Below are positions 14 through 20,148 of a stretch of 20,148 nucleotides of DNA, in pieces; the stretch's first letter is position 1, and the number at the start of each line of letters is the position of its first letter. The stretch lies in the IMG/VR virus record IMGVR_UViG_3300032116_001647, positions 1 to 20,148 of that record, one strand, 5' to 3'. Under the pieces are notes generated by a model. That model did not search any database and was not told where the DNA came from. It saw nothing but the letters and a program-made list of their open reading frames with translations. A program made the position numbers and the translations under genes. Source of the DNA: a virus.

Positions 14-213
14 AATATCAACTATTCCAATCCCCATTCACGAACAAAATTTCAGTCATTCAACACAACGACGACGGATCGTCAATTTGCTTCGACCCGG
101 TCAATGACAACACGATCGGCGAACACTTCCGCGCATGGCTCGCCGAAGGTAACGAACCTCTGCCAGCATTACAACCCGAGACACAGTCGGAACCCGATTC
201 CATAGAAACGTGA
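10..213 (+). CDS. Small tail-fibre-associated protein (67 aa), left copy
   Basis: The gene encodes 67 residues with no signal peptide or membrane segment. The C-terminal half contains the pattern FDP...N followed by AWLAEGN and a Pro-rich end. Small phage proteins with this FDPAN...WLAEGN pattern are commonly found directly after tail fibre genes, and the motif also occurs at fibre C-termini. Here it overlaps the fibre stop by four bases, so it is translationally coupled to it. A role as a fibre accessory or chaperone is inference. The copy at 19218-19421 differs by F40Y and E57Q. The stop overlaps the GTG start of the next gene. Confidence 0.75.
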   Translation: MKYQLFQSPFTNKISVIQHNDDGSSICFDPVNDNTIGEHFRAWLAEGNEPLPALQPETQSEPDSIET

Positions 214-869
214 CCCGGATCGCCCGGATCCTCATCTGGGCTCCAGCAGCTGCGCTCACACTCATCGCATCACAAGCCTCCGCGACCGGCTTCATCGTCT
301 GGACTTGTATCGCGGAGCAGAGCTGGACAATGAACCAACCGGTCGAGCATTACGACGCCGGGCTCTTTCCCGGCTGGGACGACTGCGAAGCGTGGCGAGC
401 CGGTGATCCCGGTGAGAGCTACGTCTGGAGCTACGGGCTCCCACAAGTAACACCGACAACATCGACGAGCTCGACTACGAGCACGAGCACCACGTCGACC
501 ACGTCGACCACGTCCACGACGACGACAACCACGATCGCTCCAGAGCCTTCTCCGACGACCGTAGAGACGACCACAACGACCTCGAGCACTACAACACCTC
601 CGACGACGACCAGCACCTCCACGACCTCTACAACGTCAACCACGAGCACCACAACCACCACAATGACGACAACGACAGTCCCCGAAACAACCACGACAAC
701 GACCACGATCGCTGAGCTCATCAAAAAAGAACCCAAGATCGAATCGCGGTCAATCAACACCGACGCTCTCGCTCCCGGCGTCACCCCAGAACAAGCGACG
801 GTCGTAGTGATCTCAACAATCACCGCGCTCGTCGTCCCAACACCTACCAGCAGAAAGAATCGGAAATGA
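210..869 (+). CDS. Secreted, probably membrane-anchored Thr-rich (mucin-like) protein, left allele
   Basis: The 219-residue protein has four parts. Residues 1-25 are a Sec-type signal peptide (positive N-terminus, hydrophobic core, cleavage near SQASA). Residues 26-80 form a small Trp/Cys-containing domain with only two cysteines (C33, C59), probably a disulfide. Residues 81-168 are almost entirely Thr/Ser with short VPET and IAPEP breaks, like an O-glycosylated stalk. Residues 197-211 are a hydrophobic stretch followed by a basic tail (RKNRK), like a C-terminal anchor. The start is GTG at 210, inside the preceding stop; the gene runs into the next with an ATGA overlap, so it is expressed with the lysis genes. 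I do not recognise the N-terminal domain. Surface masking, superinfection exclusion or a lysis helper are all possible. Confidence 0.85.
   Translation: MTRIARILIWAPAAALTLIASQASATGFIVWTCIAEQSWTMNQPVEHYDAGLFPGWDDCEAWRAGDPGESYVWSYGLPQVTPTTSTSSTTSTSTTSTTSTTSTTTTTTIAPEPSPTTVETTTTTSSTTTPPTTTSTSTTSTTSTTSTTTTTMTTTTVPETTTTTTTIAELIKKEPKIESRSINTDALAPGVTPEQATVVVISTITALVVPTPTSRKNRK
450..713 (+). repeat. Thr/Ser-codon low-complexity tract with 9-base tandem units
   Basis: About 88 codons are nearly all ACN or AGC/TCG. Within it the 9-base unit CACGTCGAC is repeated directly at 491-508 (two exact units plus a diverged third). In the right copy the same place, 19699-19725, has three exact units. All length changes seen are multiples of three, so reading frame is kept. 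Confidence 0.85.
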
Positions 870-4931: not shown

Positions 4932-5285
4932 ATGAACGAGCCCCACCTAACACTCTGGGAAGCCCTAGATCAAGTCATTCCAGCGCATAGACTGGCAAGA
5001 CCTAACCAACCAGAGACCGCCAAGGAAGCCTCCGAGAGCGCAAGCCGGAGAGCACCTTCACAAAGGAGGCGCGTATGGGAAGCACTCATAGAACTCGGAT
5101 CAGCGACCGACTACGAAATCTCAATCCACCTTGGGATCCTTCGGAGCTCAGCTGCCAAAAGACGACAAGAACTCTCCGACCAAGGCTTCGTCGTCGACAC
5201 CGGACAACGACGCAAAACCGACACCGGCTCAACCGCCGTCGTCTGGCGATGCTCCTACTCCCAGCACTACTCGGACTCACAATGA
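4932..5285 (+). CDS. Winged helix-turn-helix DNA-binding protein (117 aa)
   Basis: The start ATG 4932 has AAGGAG at 4917-4922, one of the clearer ribosome sites in the window. Residues about 42-112 form a winged helix: RRVWEALIELGSATDYEIS (helix 1 and 2), HLGILRSSAAKRRQELSDQG (recognition helix), then the wing with VVDTGQRRKT and VWRC. The fold resembles phage proteins that sense or control transcription. The N-terminal 40 residues are less ordered. It is the last gene of the early block and could be a late-gene switch. The 3' end overlaps the lysozyme-like gene by 37 bases in another frame. Confidence 0.65.
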   Translation: MNEPHLTLWEALDQVIPAHRLARPNQPETAKEASESASRRAPSQRRRVWEALIELGSATDYEISIHLGILRSSAAKRRQELSDQGFVVDTGQRRKTDTGSTAVVWRCSYSQHYSDSQ

Positions 5286-5701
5286 TCTCGACACCGGCAC
5301 AAGCGCAAGATCGCACCGATCCAGCTTGGCAACGATGCCAAAAACTCGCACCAGAAATGAGACGACACAAGCTGCCTCCTCGCTACTTCGTGCCGATCTG
5401 CGTCCGCGAATCCAAGGGAATCAGAATGGCATTCGGAGTCAACTACCGCGACGGCTCATCGCACCGCGACTGTACCCCGAAGATCTGGAACGAGTACCTC
5501 AAAAGCTGCGCGAAACATATCAAGTCGACCGACTACTCCTATTTCCAAATCAATTCCAGCTGGAGAACACTCACGAAACAGATCTGCGGAAATTATCCCG
5601 AGAGCGGAATACTCTTCGACAAGAAATGCCACTTCGCGGTCGCTTCATATCTCTATAACAAGGGAGGCGGTCTGGCGAACTGGCGAGGCTCGAGCTCATG
5701 A
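5249..5701 (+). CDS. Secreted lysozyme/transglycosylase-like protein (150 aa)
   Basis: From ATG 5249 the product has a clean signal peptide (MLLLPALLGLTMISTPAQA, cleavage near residue 19). The mature part has six cysteines (C30, C51, C75, C87, C113, C127), fitting an exported, disulfide-bonded enzyme. CVRESKG at 51-57 offers a catalytic-type Glu (E54), and DYSYFQINSSW (95-105) matches the FQIN signature of lysozyme-like and SLT transglycosylase folds. It would cut glycan strands in peptidoglycan. The long frame continues upstream but only this start gives a signal peptide. It lies between early genes and HNH/terminase, far from the main lysis cassette; entry aid, virion or second lysin roles are open. 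Confidence 0.65.
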   Translation: MLLLPALLGLTMISTPAQAQDRTDPAWQRCQKLAPEMRRHKLPPRYFVPICVRESKGIRMAFGVNYRDGSSHRDCTPKIWNEYLKSCAKHIKSTDYSYFQINSSWRTLTKQICGNYPESGILFDKKCHFAVASYLYNKGGGLANWRGSSS

Positions 5702-7873: not shown

Positions 7874-8966
7874 GCTCCTAACACAGAAGCCCCACACTCG
7901 GAACGCTTACGTCGACGCCTACGGTCGCATCAGTCGAAATACTTCACTCGTCGACTCAAACGTCGACGTGAACCTCGACTCACTTCTCAGCGTCCCGGGA
8001 ATCTGGCGAGCGGTCACGCTTATCTCCGATATCGTCGGCTCACTTCCGCTCTACGCAGTCCGCGACGATATCCCGGTCGAGCCAACACCGCGACTCCTCG
8101 AACGTCCGAACCCACTCGAGACACGACCCGAAACTCTTGGAGCTATGACGGCAGCTCTTCTCGTTCACGGGAACTATATCGCGATCCTTGGTGAGCCGGG
8201 AGCGAACGGATATCCCGATTCGATCTACCCTGTGAACCCGGAGCGCGTGAAGATCATGAAGAAGGACGGCGTCAAAGTGTTTGAGATCGAACGCGAAACC
8301 TATTCCGCGTCAGAGATCTTCCACGTCAAAGGCTTCTCCATGCCCGGCGAGGTTGCCGGGATCGGCATCATGGCAGCTCAGCGACAGGGCATCGGCTCCG
8401 CGATCGCGATCCTTCAATTCGCAGCTCGTTACTTCGCCGGCGGTGGACTCCCGAGCTACGTCATCAAGTCAGACAACCCAGATCTCCAACAGGACGAAGC
8501 AGAGGCTCTCAAGTGGAAATGGCTTCAGCAGTACGGAGGCACGAACCGCGAACCGGTCGTCCTGAATGCGTCGACAGATATCAAACAGATCTCCAGCAAC
8601 GCGCAAGAATCACAACTCCTCGAAGCTCAGCAACAGATCAACGTCAACGCCTCGAACATCGCCGGCGTCCCCGGGAACTATGTCAACGCTCCGAACTCGT
8701 CGCGGACATATAACAACCTCGAAGCTCAAGCTCTTGAGCTATTGAAAACATCAGTCCAAGCTCCGATCCTTTCCCGGCTCGAGGCAACATTCACCGACTA
8801 CCTACCGCGAGGACAATACGCCAGATTCAACCTCGACTATTTCCTCCGCGCTGACACACTAACCAGATACCAAGCTCATCAGATCGCTCTCCAGAATGGC
8901 TTCCTCACAGTCGACGAAGTCCGCGAACTCGAGAAGCGTCCCCCATTGAACGGAGGCACTCAATGA
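7863..8966 (+). CDS. Portal protein, HK97 family
   Basis: The 367-residue protein shows HK97-type portal features: VPGIWRAVTLISDIVGSLPLY (about 44-64), LLERPNPLETRPE, LLVHGNYIAIL with Gly-rich turn, YPVNPERVKI, EIFHVKGFSMPG, a GIGSAIAILQFAARYFAGGGLPSYVI segment and the C-terminal region with IAGVPGNYVN and SRTYNNLEAQALELLKTSVQAPILSRLE. The dodecameric ring is the DNA channel of the capsid. At 367 residues it is a little short for the family, mainly at the C-terminus. It overlaps the protease gene by four bases. Confidence 0.92.
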   Translation: MLNRLLTQKPHTRNAYVDAYGRISRNTSLVDSNVDVNLDSLLSVPGIWRAVTLISDIVGSLPLYAVRDDIPVEPTPRLLERPNPLETRPETLGAMTAALLVHGNYIAILGEPGANGYPDSIYPVNPERVKIMKKDGVKVFEIERETYSASEIFHVKGFSMPGEVAGIGIMAAQRQGIGSAIAILQFAARYFAGGGLPSYVIKSDNPDLQQDEAEALKWKWLQQYGGTNREPVVLNASTDIKQISSNAQESQLLEAQQQINVNASNIAGVPGNYVNAPNSSRTYNNLEAQALELLKTSVQAPILSRLEATFTDYLPRGQYARFNLDYFLRADTLTRYQAHQIALQNGFLTVDEVRELEKRPPLNGGTQ

Positions 8967-9496
8967 ACATCGAACAACGCTCCTATGAACTCGATCTCGA
9001 GATCCGAGGATCCGGAGACGGTCGGACAATCTGCGGAGTCTGCGTCCCCTACAACCGCGAACAACGAATCCACGCAGGGCTCACCGAAGTATTCCTCAAA
9101 GGAGCGTTCGCGAATGTCACCCGAGCAGCTCACCGCGTCAAAATGCTCGTCGGGCACGACGCACAAGCTCTGCCGATCGGACGCGCAACACTTCTCCGCG
9201 AAGACGAAGCCGGTCTCTACGGCGAATTCATGGTCTCCAAAACAACGCGAGGAACAGAGATCCTCGAGCTCGTCCGCGACGGTGCGCTCAATCAACTCTC
9301 CATCGGCTTCGCACCGCTTCGCGATCGTCGTCGAGCTGACGGAGTGATCGAGCGCGTCTCAGCTCACCTCGCGGAAGTATCCTTGGTGACTTTCGGTGCA
9401 TACGGTGAAGCAGCTCAAGTCGTCGGAGTCCGCGAGGAATCCGCAACACCGAACCTCGACACCATTCAAGACATACTGAAAGACATTCGCAAATGA
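8963..9496 (+). CDS. Prohead protease, HK97 (U35) family
   Basis: The 177-residue protein carries the family landmarks: ICGVCVPYNR (23-32), the catalytic His in MLVGHD (H65) followed by LPIG, the catalytic Ser in LSIGF (S113), and HLAEVSLVTFGAYGEA (135-150). It cleaves the N-terminal delta domain of the capsid protein during head maturation. The capsid gene downstream does encode such an N-terminal coiled-coil region, so the two agree. Four-base overlaps with both neighbours. Confidence 0.92.
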   Translation: MNIEQRSYELDLEIRGSGDGRTICGVCVPYNREQRIHAGLTEVFLKGAFANVTRAAHRVKMLVGHDAQALPIGRATLLREDEAGLYGEFMVSKTTRGTEILELVRDGALNQLSIGFAPLRDRRRADGVIERVSAHLAEVSLVTFGAYGEAAQVVGVREESATPNLDTIQDILKDIRK

Positions 9497-18159: not shown

Positions 18160-19221
18160 ATGCCAACAAACGGACAATTCGTCGTCGGTGAGATCGTCTC
18201 GGCAGCTGACGCGAACCAATATTTCTCACGCGGATCGCGGAATATGCTCATCAACGGCGATTTCCGAGTCGCACAACGCGGAACAAGCTTCGTCTCCGGT
18301 GCGAACAATGACGACACCTACAACCTCGACCGCTGGACACTACTCTCCGACGGGAATGACATAGTCGACGTCACACAATCAACGACCGCTCCGACCGCTG
18401 GACTCTACTCAATCGGGCTCGACGTCGAAACGATAAACAAGAAATTCGGGATCATTCAATTCGTCGAACAACGAAACATGGTTGGAGCCCTTGGACAAGT
18501 CGTGACACTTTCATTCCAAGCTCGTATCTCTGGGACGTCAATCTCAAACGTGAAAGCGGTCGTCCTTGCATGGAGCGGAACCGCTGACACAGTCACAAGC
18601 GACGTCGTATCAGCTTGGGGAGCTGACGGCGTGACTCCAACATTCGCGACGAACTGGACTGCTGAGAACACTCCCTCGAATCTTGCGGTCACTTCCAGCT
18701 GGGCGACGTATCGAATCCAAGCGACAATCGACACCGCCAACACCAAGAATCTCGCGGTCTTCATATGGTGCGACGACACAACGACAACCCTCGGAGACTT
18801 CCTCTATCTCACCGACATTCAGCTCGAGATCGGCGCAGTCGCTTCACCATTCGAGCGACGCAGCTACGGCGAAGAGCTCGCATTTTGTCAAAGATACTAT
18901 TTCCGATGGACTAGTGAGAGTGCTTTCGGCTCGGTGATGATAGCTGCGTTATGGTCTACGACCGCGCACTACGGGCACATGCGTTTTCCGGTGACTATGA
19001 GAGTCAACCCTACGACCGGAGGAAGATCAAACGCGGGAGACTTCCTTGGATATTGGTATGCGACGACCTTTGCTACTGCAACCGCAGTCACGGTCGATAC
19101 TGGAACTGCGACCACGAACACGATCGAAGTCCAATTCACTTTCGCGACTGGCACGACCTCGTCAGCTTCATTCATAAGAGGCTCAAGTAGCGCATGGATC
19201 GAAGTAGGAGCCGAACTATGA
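18160..19221 (+). CDS. Tail fibre protein with jelly-roll (carbohydrate-binding-like) domain
   Basis: The 353-residue protein starts PTNGQFVVGEIVSAADANQYFSRG, again the fibre entry motif, then NMLINGDFRVAQRGTSF (28-44) and YNLDRWTLLSDG, the hallmark of phage fibre jelly-roll domains that bind sugars. The module closes with LTDIQLEIGAVASPFERRSYGEELAFCQRYYFRW (about 223-256), which is shared by many fibre proteins. The last 100 residues form a variable tip rich in Thr/Ala. The AGGAG upstream supports ATG 18160. It is the best candidate for the receptor-binding protein. Confidence 0.85.
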   Translation: MPTNGQFVVGEIVSAADANQYFSRGSRNMLINGDFRVAQRGTSFVSGANNDDTYNLDRWTLLSDGNDIVDVTQSTTAPTAGLYSIGLDVETINKKFGIIQFVEQRNMVGALGQVVTLSFQARISGTSISNVKAVVLAWSGTADTVTSDVVSAWGADGVTPTFATNWTAENTPSNLAVTSSWATYRIQATIDTANTKNLAVFIWCDDTTTTLGDFLYLTDIQLEIGAVASPFERRSYGEELAFCQRYYFRWTSESAFGSVMIAALWSTTAHYGHMRFPVTMRVNPTTGGRSNAGDFLGYWYATTFATATAVTVDTGTATTNTIEVQFTFATGTTSSASFIRGSSSAWIEVGAEL

Positions 19222-19421
19222 AATATCAACTATTCCAATCCCCATTCACGAACAAAATTTCAGTCATTCAACACAACGACGACGGATCGTCAATTTGCTT
19301 CGACCCGGTCAATGACAACACGATCGGCGAACACTATCGCGCATGGCTCGCCGAAGGTAACGAACCTTTGCCAGCACTACAACCCCAGACACAGTCGGAA
19401 CCCGATTCCATAGAAACGTGA
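19218..19421 (+). CDS. Small tail-fibre-associated protein (67 aa), right copy
   Basis: The second copy of the 67-residue protein at 10-213, with Tyr for Phe at residue 40 and Gln for Glu at residue 57; other differences are silent. In this copy the full upstream context is present: the ATG at 19218 overlaps the fibre TGA by four bases, which confirms the start and translational coupling to the fibre gene. Confidence 0.8.
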   Translation: MKYQLFQSPFTNKISVIQHNDDGSSICFDPVNDNTIGEHYRAWLAEGNEPLPALQPQTQSEPDSIET

Positions 19422-20092
19422 CCCGGATCGCCCGGATCCTTATCTGGGCTCCAGCAGCTGCGCTCACACTCATCGCATCACAAGCCTCCGCGACCGGCTT
19501 CATCGTCTGGACTTGTATCGCGGAGCAAAGCTGGACAATGAACCAACCGCTCGAGCATTACGACGCCGGGCTCTATCCCGGCTGGGACGACTGCGAAGCT
19601 TGGCGGAATGGAGACCCCGGTGAGAGCTACGTCTGGAGCTACGGGCTTCCACAAGTAACACCTACAACATCGACAACCTCGACCACCAGCACGAGCACCA
19701 CGTCGACCACGTCGACCACGTCGACCACGTCCACGACGACGACAACCACGATCGCTCCAGAGCCTCCTCCGACGACAGTAGAGACCACCACAACAACCTC
19801 GAGCACCACAACACCTCCGACCACGACCAGCACCTCCACCACCTCCACAACGTCAACCACGAGCACCACAACCAGCACCTCGATAACCACGACAACGACA
19901 GTCCCCGAAACAACCACGACAACGACCACGATCGCTGGGCTCATCAAAAAAGAACCCAAGATCGAATCGCGGTCAATCAACACCGACGCTCTCGCTCCCG
20001 GCGTCACCCCAGAACAAGCGACGGTCGTTGTGATCTCAACGATCACCGCGCTCGTCGTCCCAACACCTACCAGCAGAAAGAATCGGAAATGA
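19418..20092 (+). CDS. Secreted, probably membrane-anchored Thr-rich protein, right allele
   Basis: This 224-residue version has the same signal peptide, two-Cys domain, Thr/Ser stalk and hydrophobic C-terminus with basic tail as the protein at 210-869. It differs by V45L, F53Y, A64N and one Glu-to-Gly after the stalk, and has five more stalk residues: three from an extra 9-base unit at 19699-19725 and two near the VPET segment. Both ends are conserved while the stalk varies in length, so the stalk seems to be a spacer rather than a fixed fold. Confidence 0.85.
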   Translation: MTRIARILIWAPAAALTLIASQASATGFIVWTCIAEQSWTMNQPLEHYDAGLYPGWDDCEAWRNGDPGESYVWSYGLPQVTPTTSTTSTTSTSTTSTTSTTSTTSTTTTTTIAPEPPPTTVETTTTTSSTTTPPTTTSTSTTSTTSTTSTTTSTSITTTTTVPETTTTTTTIAGLIKKEPKIESRSINTDALAPGVTPEQATVVVISTITALVVPTPTSRKNRK

Positions 20093-20148
20093 GAAAACTA
20101 TTCGACGAGCTCACCGCTCTCGTCTGGACTCTCGCCGGCACAGGGCTC
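20089..20148 (+). CDS. Two-TM membrane protein, right copy, cut by the window end
   Basis: Twenty codons identical to the start of the gene at 866-1036 run off the window edge within the first hydrophobic segment. The ATGA overlap with the upstream stop is preserved. It is truncated by the end of the sequence, not broken. Confidence 0.75.
   Translation, partial: MRKLFDELTALVWTLAGTGL

Follow-up and report, generated by a model that had tools for sequence, protein, structure and literature searches.

The gene analysed here, which we call Y, codes for an exported protein with a Thr/Ser-rich stalk. Together with its downstream neighbour X, a small holin-like gene, it forms a pair which recurs in phage contigs, and, to judge from sequence and gene order, it is probably a component of the lysis machinery that has escaped notice. 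Y is found in positions 210–869 (+ strand) of the window, by which we mean the whole stretch of DNA that was analysed: 20148 bases, which is the whole virus record. The constant partner X and a doubling of Y were both absent from the initial annotation; X is the most informative point.

The doubling of Y comes from an overlap of the contig with itself. Positions 1–925 are repeated at 19209–20148 with 95% identity, and the repeat reaches both contig ends exactly. This is most simply explained by a circular or circularly permuted genome of ~19.2 kb, with contig ends which represent two population variants: the record is probably a complete genome, and its overlap, being inexact, shows two natural variants. 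As a result Y is present twice, in two forms. The first copy has a GTG start and 219 aa; the second one (19418–20092, + strand, in the self-overlapping contig end) has 224 aa. When both copies are compared, 24 synonymous nucleotides and 8 amino acids differ, and there are two in-frame indels in the stalk. An excess of synonymous changes like this is expected of a protein which is translated and under constraint; relatives have also been found, and Y is confirmed as a real coding gene, beyond chance. The Val-rich reverse ORFs in positions 431–823 and 19639–20046 were rejected as genes: they are the complement of Thr codons.

Y lies within a compact series of genes, all on the + strand. It is preceded by a small ORF of 67 aa (10–213; second copy at 19218–19421), with a weak match to PHROG_20370, which has no functional label. 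Then come X (866–1036, 56 aa), Z (1033–1287, 84 aa) and an endolysin of M15 type (1284–1847). At every junction, from the small upstream gene to the endolysin, there is a 4-bp stop/start overlap (210–213, 866–869, 1033–1036 and 1284–1287). These overlaps, which couple translation in the window and in relatives, bear out the earlier proposal that Y is expressed with the lysis cassette. X has two transmembrane (TM) segments and would be a holin, to judge by its size, its two hydrophobic segments and its position. It is recognised by its adjacency to Y in the counts given below, by PHROG_29041 (no functional label) and by the X HMM, with E=2e-23, a value which is not independent because the HMM includes the window sequence; X of the window is 38–58% identical to the other aligned X proteins. 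Z, identified by alignment, is also holin-like: it is about as large as Phage_r1t_holin (PF16945) and, like it, has two TMs. Of nine Z members one matches this profile weakly (E=0.005), and there is no match in the window itself. PHROG_26427, to which Z belongs, carries the label 'nuclease', which looks mis-annotated for a two-TM holin-like family. The endolysin holds both motifs of the M15 pattern SxHxxGxAxD ... WIHVE (SVHATGRAVD and WIHVE); it has conserved relatives and a weak match to Peptidase_M15_4 (E=0.07). Outside the lysis cassette, the middle part of an ORF at 5075–5701 looks exported and lysozyme-like (...ICVRESKGIRMAFGVNYRDGSSHRDC...), with no Pfam or PHROG match.

The protein Y starts with a Sec-type signal peptide (210–284, + strand, residues 1–25), MTRIARILIWAPAAALTLIASQASA, followed by TG: it has a basic n-region, a hydrophobic h-region and A-S-A, after which cleavage is predicted. 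A lipobox was looked for in Y of the window, and there is no Cys at the cleavage site. According to a crude rule, a basic n-region, a hydrophobic segment and a small-x-small site are present in all 102 non-identical complete members of the Y family. The Thr/Ser stalk (450–713, + strand, residues 81–168) has 88 aa, and its length differs between both copies. A stretch of 40 residues with at least 60% T/S/P is found in 97 of the 102 members, and 84 of them have at least three K/R within the last 12 residues. The description of Y as an exported protein with a stalk of about 88 residues is thus upheld, and both features recur across the family. Y is found directly after the tail-fibre genes, in the window and in many relatives, a position which would suit a virion component such as a tail-associated fibre or decoration. 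We consider this reading very improbable, given a signal peptide in 102/102 members (by the same crude rule) and the assembly of virion proteins of such phages in the cytoplasm.

The host is likely actinobacterial, because relatives carry WhiB genes and the terminase is of actinophage type. WhiB genes are found in 23 of the 34 related records tested, none of them in the window, and the terminases nearest to that of the window come from phages of Rhodococcus, Gordonia and Arthrobacter. WhiB is restricted to actinobacteria (PMC6802176). Secreted proteins of actinobacteria carry O-mannose on Ser/Thr (PMC12757957), and it is plausible that in such a host the stalk of Y is O-mannosylated.

Between signal peptide and stalk there is a two-Cys head (285–449, + strand, residues ~26–80, 55 residues), which is delimited by alignment. 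The initial annotation had suspected here a small folded domain of undescribed type, and structure prediction agrees: the AlphaFold model has a beta hairpin and two short helices, with a mean pLDDT of 91.6, and in a PDB fold search it found no resembling fold and no structural relative whose function is known. Among viral proteins (BFVD) one match is significant: A0A6J5MF45, which has the same head fold (E=5e-5, 59% identity), belongs to an uncultured Caudovirales phage and is itself uncharacterised. A CBM13-like head was rejected, as the PDB matches were at chance level only. Direct searches with the window head in IMG/VR and with the whole Y protein in INPHARED (tblastn) gave no relatives, after which they were reached via the neighbouring genes. 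The two-Cys head recurs in 11 other contigs (loci L043 and L193–L202), and the 12 sequences have 21 invariant columns, both Cys included.

By querying IMG/VR with Z, the long-form Y tail, the two-Cys head and X we obtained over 200 loci, and Y- or X-like sequences are present in hundreds of metagenomic phage contigs. The gene before X nearly always codes for an exported protein, in most cases one with a T/S/P stalk. Members of the Y family have 219–1203 aa, so that Y of the window is a compact one. Their heads vary. In L111 the head is a PA14 domain, above the Pfam cut-off and with PA14 matches in the PDB as well; L054-type heads have a PPC fold (model pLDDT 79.6; PDB PPC domain 5sv5, E=3e-4). 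Both are ligand-binding types. The head of the window matches neither PA14 nor PPC, by sequence or by fold; by analogy with the heads of these other members it may bind glycans. Long-form proteins share a C-terminal region which ends in YVPxGSxVxVxxRRxxVA. Y of the window is without their helical C-terminal region: the tails align weakly (P=0.005) and the Y HMM has no match in the window. It has the architecture of the pair family, namely signal peptide, head, T/S/P stalk, short hydrophobic tail and basic end, and it is mainly this architecture and the partner X which place it in the family. No PHROG matches Y, and the one INPHARED phage in which it turned up is DSL-LC01, assembled from a metagenome. 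Locus L183 has a further exported-looking protein of 434 aa (7960–9264) near the Y-X pair, just upstream of Z.

The association of Y with X is almost strict. Among Y loci with at least 250 bp downstream, X comes after Y in 138 of 138 (137 adjacent, one fused). A first count had given X as the next gene in 132 of the 138, with one fusion; the remaining five have X too, masked by the choice of start codon. The commonest junction is a 4-bp overlap (41 cases), as in the window, where X is directly downstream of Y. Starting from X, Y adjoins it in 73 of 75 loci. The two exceptions are L223, where Y was found on inspection about 1 kb upstream of X, and L222, which has similar upstream genes. The loci counted are the best-scoring ones and partly redundant (102 non-identical complete Y proteins), so that these figures measure linkage and not independent events. 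In the actinophage DSL-LC01 Y and X are fused in a single ORF of 944 aa (L115, 4901–7735; OQ999401.1, WJZ48438.1), annotated as hypothetical. Z is near Y-X in most loci but is less faithful, either upstream of Y or some kilobases off, and M15- or VanY-like endolysins adjoin the pair in many of them. The pairs are mostly within the lysis gene block. In L139 (5281–6465) the pair lies among genes for the tail and for collagen-like fibres, and no gene in its vicinity was recognised as a lysis gene; this counts against a role in lysis, and the pair may have a different use there.

Three loci have short proteins of 71–77 aa before X, with no evident signal peptide or stalk (L042, 5604–5837; L044, 5620–5844; L045, 5599–5814), which have a tail-like hydrophobic segment with basic residues (P=8e-4). 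Apart from such short forms (L042, L044, L045 and L046), none of the loci examined keeps X, Z and the endolysin without Y. Thr-rich stalks are common among exported actinobacterial proteins, and Y might be mere cargo, a host-derived surface protein with no role in lysis. This is hardly likely for a sequence which, as itself or as X, appears in hundreds of phage contigs and stays with its partner in the samples examined. Moreover, pattern-based scans of bacterial genome contigs, which reach mainly close relatives, turned up no confirmed relative of either the long-form tail or Z.

The Y tail (714–866, + strand, residues 169–219) has a conserved LAPGVTP motif, apparent in the alignment, and a basic end; its sequence ends in ...PEQATVVVISTITALVVPTPTSRKNRK. 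It had been described as a C-terminal anchor. The hydrophobic stretch and the basic end are indeed there, whereas membrane insertion is marginal on the sequence alone. The hydrophobic segment, ATVVVISTITALVV (795–836, + strand, residues 196–209, from hydropathy), has about 14 residues (12–16). The best 19-residue Kyte-Doolittle mean in the tail is 1.55, and the insertion energy is about +1 kcal/mol, compared with about -1.0 and -0.7 kcal/mol for the two segments of X; all these are crude values from simplified calculations of our own, not from SignalP or DeepTMHMM. The strongest argument for insertion is indirect: the constant pairing with X and the one fusion to it. In X proteins the mean number of K/R is 1.7 in the N-terminal flank and 1.0 in the loop, and their own tail is acidic, a weak indication that the N-terminus is cytoplasmic. 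If this is so and Y is exported, the fusion in DSL-LC01 requires that the hydrophobic segment of Y cross the membrane, which supports its insertion in spite of its weak hydrophobicity. A sortase-anchored surface protein was rejected: there is no LPXTG-type motif before the hydrophobic segment, the conserved motif there being LAPGVTP. The idea that the Y tail is a paralogue of the second TM of X found no support either (hhalign probability 0.3%).

The pairing and the tail also bear on a different function. Y might be an extracytoplasmic regulator of X, an antiholin or a sensor for lysis inhibition, with a head which senses the outside and a tail which holds X inactive. The near-strict one-to-one pairing and the one fusion with a holin-like two-TM protein speak for it, as do the heads which vary while the tail is conserved and the short forms of L042, L044 and L045, which keep only the tail-like segment beside X. 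On the other hand a regulator has no need of a long stalk, X is taken as a holin only from its size, two TMs and position, and no profile similarity was found between the Y tail and X. We regard regulation of X as rather unlikely, second among the readings considered.

The likeliest reading, to which we would give slightly less than an even chance, is that Y is an envelope-facing accessory of lysis, and that Y and X form a two-part module which acts in the manner of LysZ or of a spanin with the opposite topology. Y would be expressed along with the lysis genes and exported through Sec, and the host would probably O-mannosylate its stalk. This extended stalk would keep the head at a distance from the membrane, within the cell wall or outside it, and the short C-terminal segment would sit in the cytoplasmic membrane, kept there by the two-TM protein X. 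The holin-like proteins would open the membrane and the M15 endolysin would cut the wall. Bound to a glycopolymer of the envelope, the head would then help to disrupt or remove the outer envelope and let the virions out. The initial annotation had suggested receptor masking or superinfection exclusion. The mucin-like stalk, the export and the adhesion-type heads of relatives might indeed fit a protein which coats the infected cell or its debris, as a glycosylated decoy or mask which blocks re-adsorption, be it to exclude superinfection or to protect the progeny from debris. Such a mask would be wanted early in infection, whereas Y is one of the genes of a late lysis block and is paired with a holin-like protein. 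A role in lysis is likelier because of the constant pairing with X inside lysis operons, and coating appears improbable.

How lysis proceeds beyond holin and endolysin in Gram-positive hosts, especially actinobacteria, is an open question, to which LysZ is a first answer. Y-X adds a concrete two-gene module, with hundreds of members in metagenomic phages, one holin-like partner and exchangeable heads of ligand-binding types. Tentatively, and with some reserve, the family might be a new class of lysis component which is common among phages of seldom cultured actinobacteria. Y would then be a glycosylated stalk which spans the wall, carries exchangeable binding heads and is tethered to X as its dedicated holin-like protein; during lysis it would attack the envelope beyond the wall or sense it. 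The heads could report on the envelope polymers of uncultured hosts.

Among known systems, compared by description, T and RI of phage T4 are similar to Y-X in that an exported protein is paired with a membrane lysis protein: in this holin-antiholin pair RI holds T inactive. X differs from T by its two TMs and by having hardly any extracytoplasmic domain. Like the spanins (Rz/Rz1), Y would be a third, envelope-spanning element of lysis. It differs from them by the lack of a lipobox Cys at the cleavage site, by its reversed topology, since spanins are described as N-in/C-out in PMC13056207, and by a host which probably has no outer membrane. LysZ of the Corynebacterium phages CL31 and Cog (McKitterick et al.) is, as described in PMC13056207 and PMC13148394, a lysis-cassette protein of 177 aa with one TM and N-in/C-out topology, found downstream of lysins and holin; it is proposed to act on lipid- or membrane-anchored glycans, and its deletion is reported to give small plaques, which are rescued on hosts lacking LAM. 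It resembles Y in being an additional protein of an actinophage lysis cassette, linked to the membrane and in part extracytoplasmic. In Y the order is reversed: a signal peptide, head and stalk, the bulk of the protein outside, and a hydrophobic tail at the C-terminus, in a gene which precedes the holin-like ones. We have therefore not filed Y as a LysZ; by analogy it may work like LysZ, which is the closest known idea.
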